The position numbers and the translations under genes were made by a program. Under the pieces are notes generated by a model. The model did not search any database and was not told where the DNA came from. It worked only from the letters and a program-made list of their open reading frames with translations. This document shows positions 13 through 31,360 of a stretch of DNA of 31,360 bases, in pieces. Every line of letters begins with the position of its first letter. Position 1 is the stretch's first letter. The stretch is from a virus, in IMG/VR virus record IMGVR_UViG_3300032296_001455, positions 1 through 31,360 of that record. One strand, given 5' to 3'.

Positions 13-63
13 GCGGCCTTGGGGGGGTAGGCAAAAGATTCCTTAGAAGCCCCTTTATGGCCT

Positions 64-537
64 CTAACCACGGTCCCCGCGTGCACGTCGCAAGCCCCCC
101 TGGTAACGGCGCCGGAAGCACGCAATTTGCTCATGCACCGATGAGACTGCACTCAGCCCCATCATCTTCGCGATGGATCTCATGCTGTGTTTGGAGCCGA
201 GTCCAAGTCCGATGCGTACCACCTCCGTCTGTCCACGTAGGTAGGGGCAGCGGCGAGATCCGATTGAGTCGAGCATGACGCGCAGGATGGTGAGCACCTC
301 TGCCCGGTCATACGTCTGGTGTCTGGTGGTCGCGTCCTCTCCCTCGTCTTGCCTTAGTCGCCAGCACGCCCTGGCTTCGTTCAGCTCCATGACTGTATCG
401 CCAGACTTGGGCAGTTCGCGGTAAGGCCGGTAGCCGGAGGCCCGTGCCTTCCTCTGCTCAGCCTTCGATAGGGAATCGAAGTGGGCATCAGCTGCGCGCA
501 TATGCGCCTGCGGGATGTTGTCCTGAGTCTCGGCCAC
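64..537 (-). CDS. Small helix-turn-helix protein, putative regulator
   Basis: This is a 157-aa basic protein that I cannot assign to a named family. Its C-terminal third (about residues 115-150) contains SMRSIAKMMGLS followed by SVHEQIACFRRRY, which reads as a helix-turn-helix like sigma region 4 or small phage regulators, and it ends in an Arg-rich tail. The start used is GTG at 537. An ATG at 501 is an alternative: it lies in the palindrome GCGCATATGCGC and follows TCCCGCA, close to the leader motif seen before other genes. The gene sits between the iteron region and the left genome end, the last gene on the minus strand. A role in late-gene control or replication control is possible but not shown. 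Confidence 0.6.
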   Translation of the reverse strand: MAETQDNIPQAHMRAADAHFDSLSKAEQRKARASGYRPYRELPKSGDTVMELNEARACWRLRQDEGEDATTRHQTYDRAEVLTILRVMLDSIGSRRCPYLRGQTEVVRIGLGLGSKHSMRSIAKMMGLSAVSSVHEQIACFRRRYQGGLRRARGDRG

Positions 538-670
538 TGATCAGGTTGTAGGGGTCAGGATGGGCTGAAGTGAAACTATAACCCCGCATCCATCGTTTGC
601 GTCTGTTTGCAGGCGTTTGCAGGACTTGCAAACACGTTAACCCATTGACTACCAGCGGACTTGCGAACGA

Positions 671-743
671 CTACTACTACTACCTACAACTATATAGATA
701 GATATATATAGAGAGAGGGAAAAGGGGAGGGGATAGGAGAGGG
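671..743. repeat. Low-complexity AT-rich and purine tract
   Basis: The stretch begins with about four CTA repeats, continues through TA/GATA-type repeats at 690-710, and ends in an almost uninterrupted A/G run on the plus strand to about 743. It is the most AT-rich and repetitive short segment in an otherwise GC-rich genome. Flanked by iterons on both sides, it could be the easily melted part of an origin. Confidence 0.6.
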
Positions 744-786
744 TATCCTATAAAGGGGGCTATATCGTGGGGAAGTTGCAAACACC

Positions 787-797
787 GACTTGCAGTC
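787..797. promoter_or_regulatory. GACT-TGC-AGTC inverted repeat, operator candidate
   Basis: GACT and AGTC form a perfect 4-bp inverted repeat around TGC. A near-identical copy (GACTTGCGGTCA) lies at 10884-10895 upstream of the HExxH-protein operon, and half-matches beginning GACTTGC occur at 623 and 658. Shared sites in two non-coding regions suggest a common DNA-binding protein, which is an inference. Confidence 0.35.
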
Positions 798-864
798 ATA
801 AAGCCTTACCACTGCAGACGTTTAGCACGTTTGCAGATGTAGGCAGAATTGTTGCAACAGACCC

Positions 865-3516
865 TTAGTCGAGGAAAGCCGACCTCGGAATCCGCACCGC
901 ACGATGGATGGACGCACCGAAACGGACGCCCGCCACGTGGGCCGCGCCCGGTACTCTTGCAAACTGATCCTTCCACTTATCCGCCCAGGACGTGTCCATG
1001 AACAGGGTACGCAGGGCCGGGTGATGGTTGGAGATCGCGACTGTGTCGTCCTCCAGTCGGATACCCGAGCGCTGCAGATTGAGGCGCAGGTTGTCGGCCT
1101 CGTCGACGGTGACCTCGGTCGAGTAGTAAGCCTGCACCAGTTCGCCGATGGAGCGGGTGTAGGTATGGTCGCCCTGCTCGAAGCGAATGGACTTATCAAG
1201 GAGCCAAGCGAGGGCGCGGACTTCGTCCTGGTCAGCCTCGTCGGGCATGAAGCCGTGCCAGTTCTGCTTCTCGACCCAAGCGGTGGCGTCCTCGAGGGAC
1301 AGGACTCGCGTCGAGGTCAGGGAGAAGGCACCGGATAGGAGAGCGCCCAACTGGTCACCGATGCGCTGATCGCCTAGCTTGACGGCCACGGCCTTGGCGA
1401 AGGTCCGGGCGTTGGCGGTGATGGAGAGGGCGTTAGCCAGGGCACGGGAGCGGATGCCCTCGGCGTAGTTAGGGCGGGCCACGGTCTCGGCCCACAGGGC
1501 TTTCAGCTGCTCGAAGCGTTCGCGTCCGCCGTCGGTGTTGTCCTTCCGCAGTTCGAGGGACGTGATACGGCTGGTGTCGGCGCGCTGGTTCGCGGCCACG
1601 CCGATGGAGGCGAAGGCGAAGCACGAGCGGATCTGATACTCCATGGCCTTGCCGGAGGCGGAGCCCTTGCCGATGCCTGCGCCGGTCTCAGCTGAGGCGG
1701 CACGTGCGAGCTCGAGGATGGACTGCATCCGCATCTGGCCTCGCTTGTCCTCGGACTCGGCCTCGTCGAAGATGACCGGGAGAGCGTCGGACTTGAGGCG
1801 CTGACGGATGAAGGCTTCGGTGGTGGCCGACTGCACCTGCAGCGCAAGGCGACCGACGAGCGGGTCGAGGATGTTGTTTAGGAGCCACGTCTTGCCGGAG
1901 CCCGAGGGGCCGTTGACCCAGATGTGCGGACGCCAGCCGAGCACGCCGCAGATGGGAGCGATGACGCACCAGCCAGCGAAGAACTTGGAGAAGATGGGCT
2001 CCTTCCAGTTCATCATGTCGGTGAGGGCCATGAGACGCGCGGCCTCGGCGTTCGAGATAGGTTCAGCCTGGTCAGCCTCTAGGCGCTGGCCCTGCGTGTA
2101 GATCCACTTGGACTTGAAGGACGGGATGGTGCGCTCTTCGTTGCCGATGAGCAGGCGGTCGCCAGCGTGGAACAGGACCTGTTCGCCGTCGACCCAACAG
2201 CCACGGCCACGGACGCGGCGGGGAGAGAAGATGCCCTCGCGGTGAGCGGCTTGGATGAGAGCGTTGGCTGCTGCCTTCCAGTCAGCGCCTTCGCGGGAGG
2301 GGAAGTGAGACTCCCACCAGTTGGCACCGGCAAGGCGGAGGAACGGCAGGTGCTTGTGGTCGTTGGCCGACAGGGCCACGATCTGCTGGCTGGAGTCGGG
2401 CAGGTAGAAGTAGACGCCCTCGTCATGTCCGAGGACGCGGAACGGCCACGGCACTTCGGGAGTGGGGTCTGGTTCGCTCGGCAGGGCTGCGTACTCCATG
2501 GCCTCGAGCACTTCGGGAGGCATGGGCACGTGCGGAGATTCGGGGGGCGTATTCTCCGCATCCTTGCGGACATTAGGTTCGCCCCGGATGTGAGCGCGCA
2601 CCTGGTCAGTGGTCCATCCTTCGGACTCAGCGTCGGCGAGGTCCCATCCTTCGGCCACGCCAGCGGGAGGGGTGACGATGCGGACGTTGGGCAGTTGCTT
2701 GCGGATGAGCTCGATGCACTTGCGCCCGGGCTCGTCGGCATCAGGCCAGAAGAGGACGCGGCGGTCAGAGAGGGGAGACCAGTCGGCGAGGCTGACGGCC
2801 TTGGAGCCACCCGACCACGTCGTGCAAGTGAGGTTCGGCAGCAGACGAGAGGCCGCGTCGGCGGTCTTCTCGCCCTCGACGATGAGGACCCACGCGGTGG
2901 GGTCGGCCTTGCACAGGGCAGGCAGGTTGTAGAGAGGGCGGGGCTTGGCGAAGGACTTCCAGCGCCAGCCTTCCTTGCCGGAGACATGGCGGCACCACGT
3001 GATGGGCAGGACTTCCTTGGAGCCGTCAGCCAGGTCGAAGCGGCAGATCAGGCCGACGCGGTGGCCGTCAGCGGTGAGGTAAGGCCAGGTGGCCACAGGA
3101 TGGCCGTGCTTGTAATGGTTCAGGTCGGGCTCGTGGCAACCATCGGGAGCGTGGGCGAGGGGTTCCCACTCGCTCGCGGCGCTTGGCTTGGACTCGTACT
3201 CGGCCTTCGGAGCGATGGCGGTGAGGTTGCCCAGGGACAGACGGTCGGCGAGTTCCTTGGCGGCTTCGCCCTGCTTGCATCCGCGCACGGCGGCCAGCAG
3301 GCTGATCGGGTCGGAGCCCTTGAGGTCACCGGCGAAGTCAGCCCAGCGACCTGTGATAAGGTTGATGGACATCGACGAGCCGGGCTCTCCGTTGATGGAG
3401 CCGATGCGGAACTCGTGGCCGTCCTTCTTGCCAGCGGGGAACCACTCCATGCAGAGCGATTCGAGGGATGAGAGAGCAGCCGAGTTGACGGCGGCGAAGT
3501 CGAGACGAGATGCCAT
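865..3516 (-). CDS. TOPRIM primase-helicase
   Basis: This 883-aa replication protein probably synthesises primers and unwinds the phage DNA. Residues about 30-95 look like the degenerate N-terminal domain common in phage primases. A TOPRIM domain follows, with VLIVEGEKTAD (209-220) and the acidic pair in FWPDADEPG (D259, D261). The C-terminal half is an ATPase: Walker A GPSGSGKT at 536-543 and Walker B VIFDEAE at about 581-587. The start chosen is ATG at 3516, which follows the leader TCCCGCAC by 3 nt. The reading frame is open further upstream, but that would run through the terminator at 3568-3616. No separate DNA polymerase gene is visible, so host polymerase is probably recruited. The candidate origin lies immediately downstream. 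Confidence 0.9.
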   Translation of the reverse strand: MASRLDFAAVNSAALSSLESLCMEWFPAGKKDGHEFRIGSINGEPGSSMSINLITGRWADFAGDLKGSDPISLLAAVRGCKQGEAAKELADRLSLGNLTAIAPKAEYESKPSAASEWEPLAHAPDGCHEPDLNHYKHGHPVATWPYLTADGHRVGLICRFDLADGSKEVLPITWCRHVSGKEGWRWKSFAKPRPLYNLPALCKADPTAWVLIVEGEKTADAASRLLPNLTCTTWSGGSKAVSLADWSPLSDRRVLFWPDADEPGRKCIELIRKQLPNVRIVTPPAGVAEGWDLADAESEGWTTDQVRAHIRGEPNVRKDAENTPPESPHVPMPPEVLEAMEYAALPSEPDPTPEVPWPFRVLGHDEGVYFYLPDSSQQIVALSANDHKHLPFLRLAGANWWESHFPSREGADWKAAANALIQAAHREGIFSPRRVRGRGCWVDGEQVLFHAGDRLLIGNEERTIPSFKSKWIYTQGQRLEADQAEPISNAEAARLMALTDMMNWKEPIFSKFFAGWCVIAPICGVLGWRPHIWVNGPSGSGKTWLLNNILDPLVGRLALQVQSATTEAFIRQRLKSDALPVIFDEAESEDKRGQMRMQSILELARAASAETGAGIGKGSASGKAMEYQIRSCFAFASIGVAANQRADTSRITSLELRKDNTDGGRERFEQLKALWAETVARPNYAEGIRSRALANALSITANARTFAKAVAVKLGDQRIGDQLGALLSGAFSLTSTRVLSLEDATAWVEKQNWHGFMPDEADQDEVRALAWLLDKSIRFEQGDHTYTRSIGELVQAYYSTEVTVDEADNLRLNLQRSGIRLEDDTVAISNHHPALRTLFMDTSWADKWKDQFARVPGAAHVAGVRFGASIHRAVRIPRSAFLD

Positions 3517-3519
3517 AGG

Positions 3520-3527
3520 GTGCGGGA
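3520..3527 (-). promoter_or_regulatory. TCCCGCAC leader motif (primase-helicase)
   Basis: On the minus strand TCCCGCAC is followed by three bases and the ATG at 3516. It is one of six copies placed 0-3 nt before start codons. No Shine-Dalgarno sequence is visible at the usual distance. Confidence 0.5.
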
Positions 3528-3567
3528 TTGGCAACGGTGTCCCTAGGGCTGGGGTCAGGCAAGCGGG

Positions 3568-3616
3568 AAATAAGAAGACCCCCCGAGAGAAACCTTCTGC
3601 GAGAGGGCCGGGGGGT
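3568..3616 (-). terminator. Terminator after VRR-NUC gene
   Basis: On the minus strand an 8-bp GC-rich stem (ACCCCCCG pairing with CGGGGGGT; 3609-3616 with 3578-3585) encloses a 23-nt loop and is followed by the pyrimidine-rich tail CTTCTTATTT. It lies between the nuclease stop at 3645 and the primase-helicase start at 3516, separating the two transcripts. Confidence 0.75.
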
Positions 3617-3644
3617 TTACTGCCATCAGTCTGCCCGGGCTGGT

Positions 3645-3989
3645 TCAGTCCGCAAGCAAGAACCTGACATCCTCGACCGACCGGGCTATGACGGCGATGC
3701 CCCCGGCCTTGCGGACGTTGTCTGCCCACGTCTGCTGCTCGGGTCGGACGGTGCCCTTGGGGGTCTTGACCTCCACGGATACGAACTGAGCGACGGTCGT
3801 GCCGACCATGTCGGGGGTGATGACCAGCGACCGCCAGCCGATCAGGTCGCCCGAGCCGGTGATGAGGCCGTAACGGATGACGCGGCCATCGGGTGCCTTG
3901 AAGGCGCCGACGTTATTGCGGAAGACCTTAATCCCTGGATGAGTCCCGAGGGCCAGCCTGATGGCCTGCTGTACGCCCTGCTCGCTCAC
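3645..3989 (-). CDS. VRR-NUC domain nuclease
   Basis: This 114-aa protein matches the VRR-NUC family, a compact PD-(D/E)XK-fold nuclease often paired with SF2 helicases in phages and thought to act on branched DNA. The visible core is GSGDLIGW (acidic residue of the active site), then VSVEVKTPKGTVRPEQQTW (the ExK of the active site and the conserved PEQ). It starts with GTG inside a 4-nt GTGA overlap with the helicase stop, so the two are translationally coupled and probably act together in recombination or replication-fork processing. The length is normal for a stand-alone VRR-NUC. Confidence 0.9.
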   Translation of the reverse strand: MSEQGVQQAIRLALGTHPGIKVFRNNVGAFKAPDGRVIRYGLITGSGDLIGWRSLVITPDMVGTTVAQFVSVEVKTPKGTVRPEQQTWADNVRKAGGIAVIARSVEDVRFLLAD

Positions 3990-15293: not shown

Positions 15294-15487
15294 TCGGCGG
15301 AGAACTCCCAGGCGTTGCGGAAGGTGCGGTCGGACGGGATGTCGGCGGCGTCGATGATACGGAAGGGGACGCCAGCGGGGACATCCTTCGCGGCGATCTG
15401 CTCGATGGTCAGTCCGCAGTCGGGGGCGGGGATGATGATAGCCACGCCACCTTCGGGCGTCGGGTAGATGATGCGAGGGTTATTCAT
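15290..15487 (-). CDS. Small conserved protein following the fibre gene
   Basis: A 65-aa protein with the pattern [18 protein letters not shown], typical of short proteins encoded next to phage tail-fibre genes. A helical middle ([13 protein letters not shown]) and an acidic end follow. Possibly a fibre chaperone or accessory protein. ATGA overlap with the fibre stop and with the next gene. Confidence 0.75.
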
Positions 15488-17925
15488 CGGATGAAGGAAA
15501 AAAGAAGATATGAAGCGTCAACAAGCGCAGCAGGATATGATGGCCCCTGTGGGTATCCGCATTTAAATCGAAAAGCGGATGTAGTCTGCGTGTAAGTTCC
15601 ATAACTAAAAACAGCAGTCATTACCGAAAAAGCCGCGTCACCGCTAAAACCCGAGCCAACGTAATTTGCATCACTAAAAGCAGTGGTGAAGTTTACAGTA
15701 TAATCTCCTGATCCGTTGTCCGTAATGGATGACACATTTAATGAAGCGCGGATGGAGACCGTGCCCGTGCCGTTGAAGTTAACCCAAGCCTTGACGTTGT
15801 TATCCGCACGGACGAAAGCAGTCGTCGCAATCTGAGTCGTGTTCGTTCCCGCCGTGGCGGTCGGAGCCGCAGGGGTTCCAGTGAAGGTCGGCGAGGCGAG
15901 GTTCGCCTTTAGGTTATCCGCCGTGGTCACGAACGCAGTCGTGGCGATCTGCGTGGTGTTGGTGGCGGCGGCAGCCGTCGGGGCGGTCGGGGTTCCCGTC
16001 AGCGCAGGGCTGGCGAGGTCGGCCTTGTTCGCGGCGCTGGCGATCGTGAAGTAGGTCGAAGCAGCCGAAGCGGTCGTGAGGTAGGACGACATCCCGCTGA
16101 TCGTCTGGTAAGTAGACGCGGCGGTAGCCGTGGTCAGGTAGGAGGACATACCCGACAGAGTCTGGTAGGTGCTCGCCGCCGTGGCCGTGGTCAGGTAGTT
16201 GCTCGCCGTCTCGACCGCCATCGTGCCGAGGCCGAGGTTCGTGCGGGCCGTGCCGGTGTTCGCCAGACCGCTCAGGTTGTCCGTTTTAAGCAGGAAGCCA
16301 GACGAGCCGGGGTAGGCGACAGTCTGCTGGGTTCCGCCTGGGAACTGCAAGTAGCTGTCCGTAAACAACCACTTAAGCGAACCACCGTAGACCATGGCAA
16401 TCTGCCCGACTCCAGCCCGCAGGTGGATGTAGTTGTTGGCGTCCTGATTGACTTGAACGGTGGCGGAGTTGATTCCGCTAGGCTCGACAGTGAGGATGCC
16501 GTCGACGCTCGGCTCGAGGATTGTGGCGTAGGTGCTGGCGGCGGTCGCGCTGGTGAGGTAAGGGCTCAGAGCGGACGAAGTGATGAAGCCCGAGGGGTTG
16601 CCCGTCAGAGGGTAGTAGGTGCTGGCGGCAGCCGAGGTCGTCAGATACGAGCTCATGCCCGACAGGGTCTGATAGGTCGAGGCCGCCGTGGCGCTGGTCA
16701 GGTAAGGCGTAAGCGCCGAAGACGTGATGAAGCCAGAAGGGTTGCCCGTGAGGGGATAGAATCCAGCCGTCACCCAGGACTCCGTGGCGTAGCCGGACAG
16801 GTTAATGCTGACGGTCTGCGTGCCCGCGTCATAGGCCAGCGGGGCGGTCGCGTTGACCACGCCAGAAGGACCAGTCGGCCCGGTATTACCCTGAGGTCCT
16901 TGGATACCTTGGATACCTTGGATGCCCTGCGGTCCCTGAGCTCCAGTGTCGCCCTGCGGTCCTTGCGGGCCAGTGGCTCCCGTTGCCCCGGTATCGCCCT
17001 GAGGTCCCTGAGGACCAGTGGCACCCGTTGCACCAGTGGCCCCGGTGTCGCCCTGGATGCCTTGCGGTCCCTGCGGACCAGTCGGCCCGGTGGCTCCCTG
17101 CGGACCAGTAGGACCAGCCGGACCTTGCGGACCTTGGATGCCTGCAGCGCCTTCGAGGTTGACCGTCCAAGAGGCGAACGTGCCTGCCCCGGTGTGGTTC
17201 TTTACGTCGATGACGATGACGCCCGTCGTGAAGTTGTAGCTCGTGACGTCACCATGCATATGGTTGTCGTTATCATATGCGATGATCACCGACTGCTGCA
17301 CGGTATACGCGAGGCCAGCCTCGACCGTCAGCGTCTGGATCACGTTGCCAAGAGTCAGGCTAGTCGTGGAGGTCGTCTCGTACTTGTCGCCGTTGATGCC
17401 CTGGATGCCCTGCGGACCGATTGGGCCTTGCGGACCGATAGGGCCTTGAGCGCCAGTCTCGCCTTGGATGCCTTGCGGGCCGGTGGCACCAGTCGCGCCA
17501 GTCGCACCCGTCTCGCCTTGGATGCCCTGAATACCTTGAGGGCCTTGGGGGCCAGTCTCACCGATAGGGCCTTGCGGACCTACGTCGCCCTGAGGGCCGG
17601 TGTTACCTTGCGGTCCCTGCGGACCTTGGATGCCTTGGATACCTTGCGGGCCAGTCGGACCAGTGGGGCCAGTTGCGCCTGTAGCTCCAGTGTCGCCCGT
17701 GTCACCCTTGGGGCCAGTAGGGCCGACAGGTCCGATGGGACCAGTGGGGCCAGTAGGACCAGCAGGGCCAGTCGGACCGGGTGCGCCTGGGACGCCGACA
17801 CTTCCCGTCAGGGTGCCAGTGATGATGCCCGTGACCGTGCCGGTGATGGTCGACTGGTCAGCGGCGAACGTGCCGGTGATGGTCCCGAAGGTCGAGGCCG
17901 TGGCGGTGATGATCGCGTCAGGCAT
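15484..17925 (-). CDS. Collagen-like tail fibre, putative receptor-binding protein
   Basis: The 813-aa fibre starts with a short Thr/Gly-rich virion-attachment segment (1-45). Two collagen-like Gly-X-Y blocks (about 46-179 and 261-354) flank a small beta domain (180-259). Then come repeated helical units of the type [18 protein letters not shown] and Pro-Ser-Gly-Phe insertions. Two copies of the phage-fibre unit ending [11 protein letters not shown] follow at about 660-730. The last 85 or so residues form a beta-rich tip. The protein should be a trimer that binds the host surface. DNA for the tip (about 15484-15760) is clearly richer in A and T than the rest, suggesting exchange of the receptor-binding end. 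Length of the collagen blocks may vary by slippage. Confidence 0.9.
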
Positions 17926-25145: not shown

Positions 25146-26000
25146 TTAGGGGTTGTAGACCGAGGCGATGGTGCCCGTGGTGATGCCCTTGGCCGCGCCG
25201 AACATCAGTTCCATGGAACCGATGAGGTTACGGGTGGAGGGGTCGACCCAGACGTTGTACGAGACCGAGATGCCGAGACCTTCGATCGGGACGACTTCGC
25301 GGACGAGGAACTGGTTGCCGACGGCGTCGAGGTCCGGGCTGGCAGCGGCCATAGCCACGGCTTCAGCCGAGCAGGCGAAACCAGCGAGTTTGGCTTCAGA
25401 CGGGAAGACGTTGGCGTAGAACACGCCGCCTTCGAAACCGTAAGCACCTTCAGCGAGAGGAAGGGAGTTGGTGCTGTTCGGGATGAGGTTGCTGTAGATG
25501 CCCGGGTTGACGATGAGCGTCTTGCGACCGGCCTTGCTGACACCAGCCCAGAGAGCCTTGAGTTCAGCAGAGCCAGGGATGACAGCCGAGTCGGCAGCGG
25601 TGACCGTGGCGGCGCCGAAGTTGGCGACGGTGATCGGAGCGGTAGCGGCGGCCCAGATGGAGTCGGCCAGCTTGTCCATGTTGATCTTCAGGATCTTCTC
25701 GAGGCGGATGCCGTTCTGGACATCAGCGTAGGAGAGGCCGAAGGGCTGGTAGAGGTGGTTCAGTTCCACGGCAGAGGCACCGAGGGTGCTGGCGCCGATG
25801 GAATTAAACGAGGTCGGGTTGGTCAGCGTGGTGCTGCCAGCGGTGGAGAGAGCCACCTGGACGACGTCCTTCGGGCGCTTCACGTCCGAGGAGAAGTCGG
25901 AGGCGAAGTTGCGAAGACCGGCGAGGCGGTTCGAGAGGGAGGTGAGGCTGAGCTCGGCGACGGTGTCGACGATCAGAGCGCTGTTGATGGTGTTAGCCAT
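25146..26000 (-). CDS. Major capsid protein
   Basis: A 284-aa protein rich in Ala, Ser, Thr and Val with no Cys-rich or catalytic motif. The order protease, scaffold candidate, this gene, terminator, connectors is that of HK97-fold phages. The sequence has an N-terminal helical arm, a central segment KILKINMDKLADSIWAAA that resembles the long spine helix, and C-terminal strands (VSYNVWVDPSTRNLIG, a loop-like P-domain end). Length fits a small HK97-fold capsid. A strong terminator directly after the gene suggests high, isolated expression. The family subtype cannot be fixed by eye. Confidence 0.8.
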   Translation of the reverse strand: MANTINSALIVDTVAELSLTSLSNRLAGLRNFASDFSSDVKRPKDVVQVALSTAGSTTLTNPTSFNSIGASTLGASAVELNHLYQPFGLSYADVQNGIRLEKILKINMDKLADSIWAAATAPITVANFGAATVTAADSAVIPGSAELKALWAGVSKAGRKTLIVNPGIYSNLIPNSTNSLPLAEGAYGFEGGVFYANVFPSEAKLAGFACSAEAVAMAAASPDLDAVGNQFLVREVVPIEGLGISVSYNVWVDPSTRNLIGSMELMFGAAKGITTGTIASVYNP

Positions 26001-31349: not shown

Positions 31350-31360
31350 GTGGCAAGCCA
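31350..31360. repeat. Right terminal repeat, candidate cos end
   Basis: Exact copy of bases 1-11 (GTGGCAAGCCA), ending the window 19 bp upstream of the small terminase start. In lambda-like phages cos lies just before the small terminase gene, as here. Inferred cos end. Confidence 0.6.

Follow-up and report, generated by a model that had tools for sequence, protein, structure and literature searches.

A candidate iteron-type replication origin beside the primase-helicase gene of a freshwater phage

In phage P4, the alpha protein combines primase, helicase, and origin-binding parts in a single polypeptide, and its iterons lie around an AT-rich stretch. In the lambda ori, with its O protein, the iterons lie beside an AT-rich unwinding element. 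The staphylococcal SaPI Rep and Cch2 are described as binding, through their C-terminal domain, iterons located directly downstream of their own helicase gene (PMC7581432). The DNA analyzed here (the window) spans an entire virus record (IMG/VR IMGVR_UViG_3300032296_001455; 31,360 bases) that contains terminase, portal, recombination, and replication genes. The intergenic gap at positions 538 to 864, between the primase-helicase gene (865 to 3729, minus strand) and the gene of an HTH protein (64 to 537, minus strand), is probably a phage replication origin of the iteron type, which, judging by sequence comparison, would be read by the upstream primase-helicase.

By analogy, the best reading of this locus is as a candidate member of the SaPI Rep/P4 type in its working. 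As with SaPI Rep and Cch2, the iterons are placed directly downstream of the primase-helicase gene; the best match of the protein's C-terminal domain, a weak one, is to SaPIBov1 Rep. Unlike in those systems, the helicase here forms one protein with a TOPRIM-like primase and is encoded by whole tailed phages; heptamers of another sequence serve as iterons, accompanied by a TAG/TAA triplet tract. The likeness to P4 alpha, drawn by description, lies in a single protein with primase, helicase, and putative origin-binding parts and in the iterons around an AT-rich stretch, although here boxes and core are contained within one 327-bp gap. Lambda O-type origins also have iterons beside an AT-rich unwinding element, but inside the initiator gene; here the iterons are found in the gap, outside both flanking genes, with one further box (956) in the primase gene, and the candidate initiator is itself a helicase-primase.

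The heptamer box TGCAAAC/GTTTGCA forms two clusters that flank an AT-rich core with a TAG triplet tract. In the cluster beside the HTH gene (595 to 634), GTTTGC is repeated on the plus strand in 10-bp steps at 595, 605, and 615, with an inverted copy at 628 (minus strand) and GACTTGC at 623. The cluster beside the primase gene (776 to 836) contains an inverted box at 776 to 783 (GTTTGC at 778, minus strand), GACTTGC at 787, and a box at 829 (plus strand). Between the clusters, a GACTTGCGAAC variant box (658 to 668, plus strand), which includes the GACTTGC at 658, adjoins the DnaA-trio-like triplet tract TAGTAGTAGTAG (670 to 683, minus strand; CTA repeats on the plus strand). The AT-rich core TATATAGATAGATATATATAG (684 to 712), probably the unwinding element, and a purine tract (713 to 745 on the plus strand, pyrimidine-rich on the minus strand) follow, and the whole CTA/TATA/GATA and purine run spans about 670 to 745.

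The sequence-only reading had described phased GTTTGC repeats and GACTTGC boxes, and these were confirmed at numbers far above shuffle expectation: six GTTTGC copies in 538 to 864 against a mean of 0.14 in 5,000 dinucleotide shuffles and three GACTTGC copies against 0.03, counts that none of the 5,000 shuffles reached in either case. When 500-base stretches of the whole record were ranked by their densest non-simple 7-mer, 601 to 1100 came first (GTTTGCA, six copies). GTTTGC has six more copies elsewhere in the record, including one at 959 inside the primase gene, where an extra CTTGCAAAC box occupies 956 to 964 at the 3' end of the coding sequence. The AT/purine tract also stands out in a GC-rich record, as had been claimed, with a G+C content of 47% in the gap versus mostly 58 to 66% in the other 1-kb windows. 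GC skew tracked gene direction and was therefore uninformative on the origin, a search of Rfam gave no match, and ORF calls were ambiguous at about 5.9 to 6.2 kb and 13.5 to 13.8 kb.

A search with the primase-helicase found 17 related virus loci. All of them keep, between the primase-helicase and HTH genes, the gap, both box clusters in the same place and orientation, the pyrimidine tract, the AT-rich core, and the TAG triplets. The earlier reading had considered absence of the repeats from relatives as evidence against an origin; their presence in all 17, together with the new repeats beside distant primase-helicases described below, strongly supports that part of its proposal. The core shows small changes only, the purine tract is kept in type and not in exact sequence, and the TAG triplets number 2 to 4 copies per relative. 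The GACTTGCGAAC box at 658 to 668 is not retained in L007, L008, L009, L010, L012, L014, L016, and L017.

In 4 of the 17 relatives (L008, L009, L012, and L016), the conserved boxes have changed together from TGCAAAC to TGCATAC/TGCACAC, two boxes of L016 reading TGCATTC, while L010, L014, and L017, otherwise close to this group, retain TGCAAAC. Because L008 and L009 are near-identical, the number of independent box-change events is small. TGCA[TC]AC or CGCATAC also fits a few non-conserved positions in the TGCAAAC-class sequences L004, L006, L010, L014, L015, and L017. If one binding protein changed, all conserved boxes would be expected to change jointly, and the pattern thus, at the sequence level, points to one cognate DNA-binding protein. 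The switch between close phages (L010 versus L012 and L008) is a ready test of specificity. As a guide to the box reader, residue covariation was undecisive, since discriminating columns appeared in both proteins alike: columns 748 and 898 of the primase-helicase (counted on the rows that remained after leaving out L001, L002, and L015, which have frame breaks in the alignment) and columns 27 and 151 of the HTH protein separate the box classes. These columns do not single out the reader, because shared ancestry would separate the classes too. Several genes unrelated to these two (ligase, exonuclease, and the gene at 25146 to 26000) showed larger L010-specific differences.

Farther away, the primase-helicase matched 75 phage records, of which we used 17 (9 over all or nearly all of their length, 8 in part), chosen for a match that extended into the C-terminal half; ZRG1 was covered for 50,000 of its 52,767 bases. 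With the studied record, L081, and 10 further loci, they made up 29 representatives, in each of which the top-scoring 6- or 7-mer cluster up to 7 kb from the helicase was sought automatically. Loci L083 to L088, which have only the TOPRIM part in common, and L082, too short, were left out. The related primase-helicases of distant phages are roughly 27 to 56% identical, and the layout recurs near their genes with a different heptamer, for example TGTCAAC, GGTAACA, or TGGCACA. L081, with a helicase part 56% identical, repeats this order downstream of its primase gene, TGTCAAC/GTTGACA boxes being found directly after the gene on both flanks of a core with CCCCCCTCCCC, TATCTATC, and TAATAATAATAAGGGG.

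Cluster scores of at least 12 were obtained for L081, Acjo_20, phi1422, MinM1, ZRG1, L107, L108, L110, L115, ST4, and MT835534, followed by L116 (10.9), the studied record (10.5), S-H1 (9.7), MQ-4 (9.1), and KLER1-1 (8.3). Among the 10 complete or nearly complete genomes, the studied record included, 8 had their densest 6-/7-mer cluster within 1.5 kb of the helicase, a count that contains PY223, whose cluster is weak and in coding sequence. The exceptions were Mwe-JY13 and ZRG1, the latter with its strongest cluster elsewhere in its genome, and the clusters of Mwe-JY13 and PY223 are doubtful. That of MQ-4 ranked fourth in its own genome with 7-mers only and first once 6-mers were included. Strong clusters within 1.5 kb were also present in the partial loci L081, L107, L108, L110, L115, and MT835534; the distance was 5.7 kb in ST4 and about 7.4 kb in fHe-Yen8-01. 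No convincing cluster appeared in the stretch examined for 10 of the 29 (L109, L111, L112, L113, L114, PHB04, Mecenats66, phiT5282EW, Touem01, and Dolphis). Paired clusters around AT-rich cores could be recognized by sequence in L107, L108, L110, L115, ST4, fHe-Yen8-01, ZRG1, and MQ-4. The iterons are directly downstream of the helicase gene in the studied record (gene end at 865, boxes at 595 to 836), L081, L108, L110, KLER1-1, phi1422, and S-H1, and the Acjo_20 cluster precedes the primase gene. Across these phages, as far as their sequences indicate, the repeats follow the primase-helicase and not the neighboring HTH gene. The set offers naturally varied pairs of iterons and initiator, and predicted origins and initiators are now supplied for phages in whose records, among those seen, replication start sites are not annotated.

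The candidate initiator, a TOPRIM-like primase fused to a P-loop helicase, strongly matched PHROG families named DNA primase (primase-helicase). Its sequence contains the Walker A motif GPSGSGKT, with AAA_22 and AAA_16 matches below the Pfam cut-offs, and when solved structures were searched by profile with the helicase part, no relative emerged. The model of residues 423 to 954 was poor overall (pLDDT 47.8), with its longest confident stretches near the C-terminus, where residues about 835 to 954 form a fairly confident predicted domain. Its best match was the C-terminus of SaPIBov1 Rep (8tch_A, residues 452 to 554; rmsd 3.0, 87 aligned) with a Z of 5.7, which is 0.8 ahead of the next row, weak in itself, and below the level clear of common folds. 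On the basis of the models, this C-terminal domain is most likely a better candidate box reader than the HTH protein. We infer box binding by the primase-helicase, core opening, and origin activity as follows: the C-terminal domain would bind the TGCAAAC/GTTTGCA boxes, the strands would open at the AT-rich core, and the protein would form helicase rings there and itself prime DNA synthesis.

The HTH protein had been put forward by the sequence-only reading as the initiator, and an origin at which it acts as initiator and helicase loader would fit the adjacency of its gene in 17 of 17 close relatives and the recognition-helix region REAAMGQ, which occurs in all four TGCATAC-class sequences and in no others. 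However, the group of the studied record has a SAVSSVHEQI helix and yet the same TGCAAAC box as the groups with RVSVVQQ or RESAMQQ, and the protein found no match in 50,697 phage records, though iterons persist beside the primase-helicase. Nor did the neighbor gene of L081 show meaningful similarity to it (14 residues, E 0.02). With the iterons traveling with the primase-helicase, this part of the earlier proposal was not sustained, and we consider it unlikely. The C-terminal half of the HTH protein is sigma-region-4-like, sigma region 4 being the best fit of its model (pLDDT 71; Z 6.9), and by this model it is more likely a transcription regulator than an initiator. A resemblance to DnaA domain IV, suggested by eye, was discarded as the main reading, since the VIA comparison ranked sigma region 4 chains at the top and DnaA chains were confined to the Foldseek list, where their E values exceeded 1.

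That resemblance to sigma region 4 fits another reading, also improbable, in which the boxes serve as an operator or promoter region for the HTH gene and for late genes on the far side of cos: phased boxes ahead of a TATAGT -10 element would be bound by the HTH protein or some other regulator, driving an HTH-cos-TerS-TerL operon. The HTH start is preceded by a strongly conserved TATAGTTTCAC, and 13 to 14 nt upstream of this sequence is the box array; a transcript running this way would pass through cos and reach the terminase genes. The conserved GGGTTATAGTTTCACTT upstream of the HTH gene (568 to 584, minus strand) is promoter-like by eye only; it received no call in the promoter consensus scan, and no sigma-70 promoter was called in the region. 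Such control would account for neither the second cluster of boxes nor the AT-rich core with its triplet tract, and L081 has different boxes followed by a gene without meaningful similarity to the HTH gene. Moreover, the phi1422 cluster follows the primase, with the terminase genes about 7 kb off, while that of Acjo_20 precedes the primase. The distance of about 7 kb from the annotated terminase genes of phi1422 also counts against the very improbable reading of the boxes as a cosB-like terminase or packaging site. The probable cos end is about 0.6 kb away, an 11-nt direct repeat is present at the record ends, and TerL and portal are of lambda type, but the repeats are located 595 to 836 bp from the end, with a gene in between. 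An iteron origin served by the primase-helicase is our preferred reading.

Within this candidate origin, the triplet tract is the most interesting and least certain part, and what we say of its role is hypothetical. The bacterial DnaA-trio is described as 3'-GAT-5' repeated at least three times beside a DnaA box (PMC8287927). TAGTAGTAGTAG, the record's only (TA[AG])4+ run, has the triplets of the DnaA basal unwinding system (at least three, with a middle A). As in that system, in the description given by the same source (PMC8287927), repeated 5'-TAG-3' (3'-GAT-5') occurs a few bases from a box and beside AT-rich DNA; in contrast, the phage tract adjoins a heptamer variant, and 538 to 864 contains no DnaA box (TTWTNCACA, up to one mismatch).

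The 29 iteron windows (23.1 kb) contained 7 trinucleotide repeats of at least 12 nt, in 6 windows (AAT 5, ACT/TAG 2), versus 40 (AAT 3, ACT 0) in the 674 kb outside them. When the windows were shuffled in 100-base blocks, 300 rounds yielded 0.08 such repeats on average and never more than 1, against the 7 observed, of which 6 remain without the studied record. The three outside AAT repeats are also in origin-like stretches, namely, the gap before the primase in Mwe-JY13, a stretch of L109 with CATACA repeats, and the iteron cluster of fHe-Yen8-01. The orientation of the tract relative to the iterons varies among phages and the GGG spacer is likewise not constant, for which reason we keep the trio reading as a hypothesis. 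The trio-then-GGG pattern was set aside as evidence, being only mildly enriched (3 distinct places in the 23.1 kb of windows versus 17 in 674 kb). A literature search gave no title on DnaA-trio-like tracts at phage origins among the matches listed, which is not proof of absence.

Tentatively, the TAG/TAA tract might be a functional counterpart of the DnaA-trio, a single-strand capture element that a self-loading phage primase-helicase, guided by rapidly evolving iterons of its own, would use in origin opening. If so, box-plus-trio opening would extend beyond DnaA and could serve to find a whole class of phage replicons. The recurring tracts make the extension of the DnaA-trio principle to self-loading viral helicases testable. 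In Aeromonas phage ST4 (L118), GCTACC repeats are very densely packed at positions 15301 to 15800, where one strand carries an 18-nt TAG tract and the other a TAA tract, and each of these tracts faces iterons. This stretch is well suited to testing for a two-way origin.

The 11-nt direct repeat at the record ends, GTGGCAAGCCA, occupies positions 1 to 11 and 31350 to 31360 and is probably a cos cohesive end of lambda-type packaging. An 11-nt repeat occurs at this site in the L010 and L012 records too, and several other relatives read across it. Near this presumed cos end, a TCTAAGGAATCTTTT-like sequence (43 to 52, minus strand; GGAATCTTTT shared) is present in all 17 relatives, and a terminator-like stem was called before it in a scan of the studied record alone. 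A large collagen-repeat tail fiber gene is encoded at 15484 to 17925 (Pfam Collagen, E 3.7e-36).
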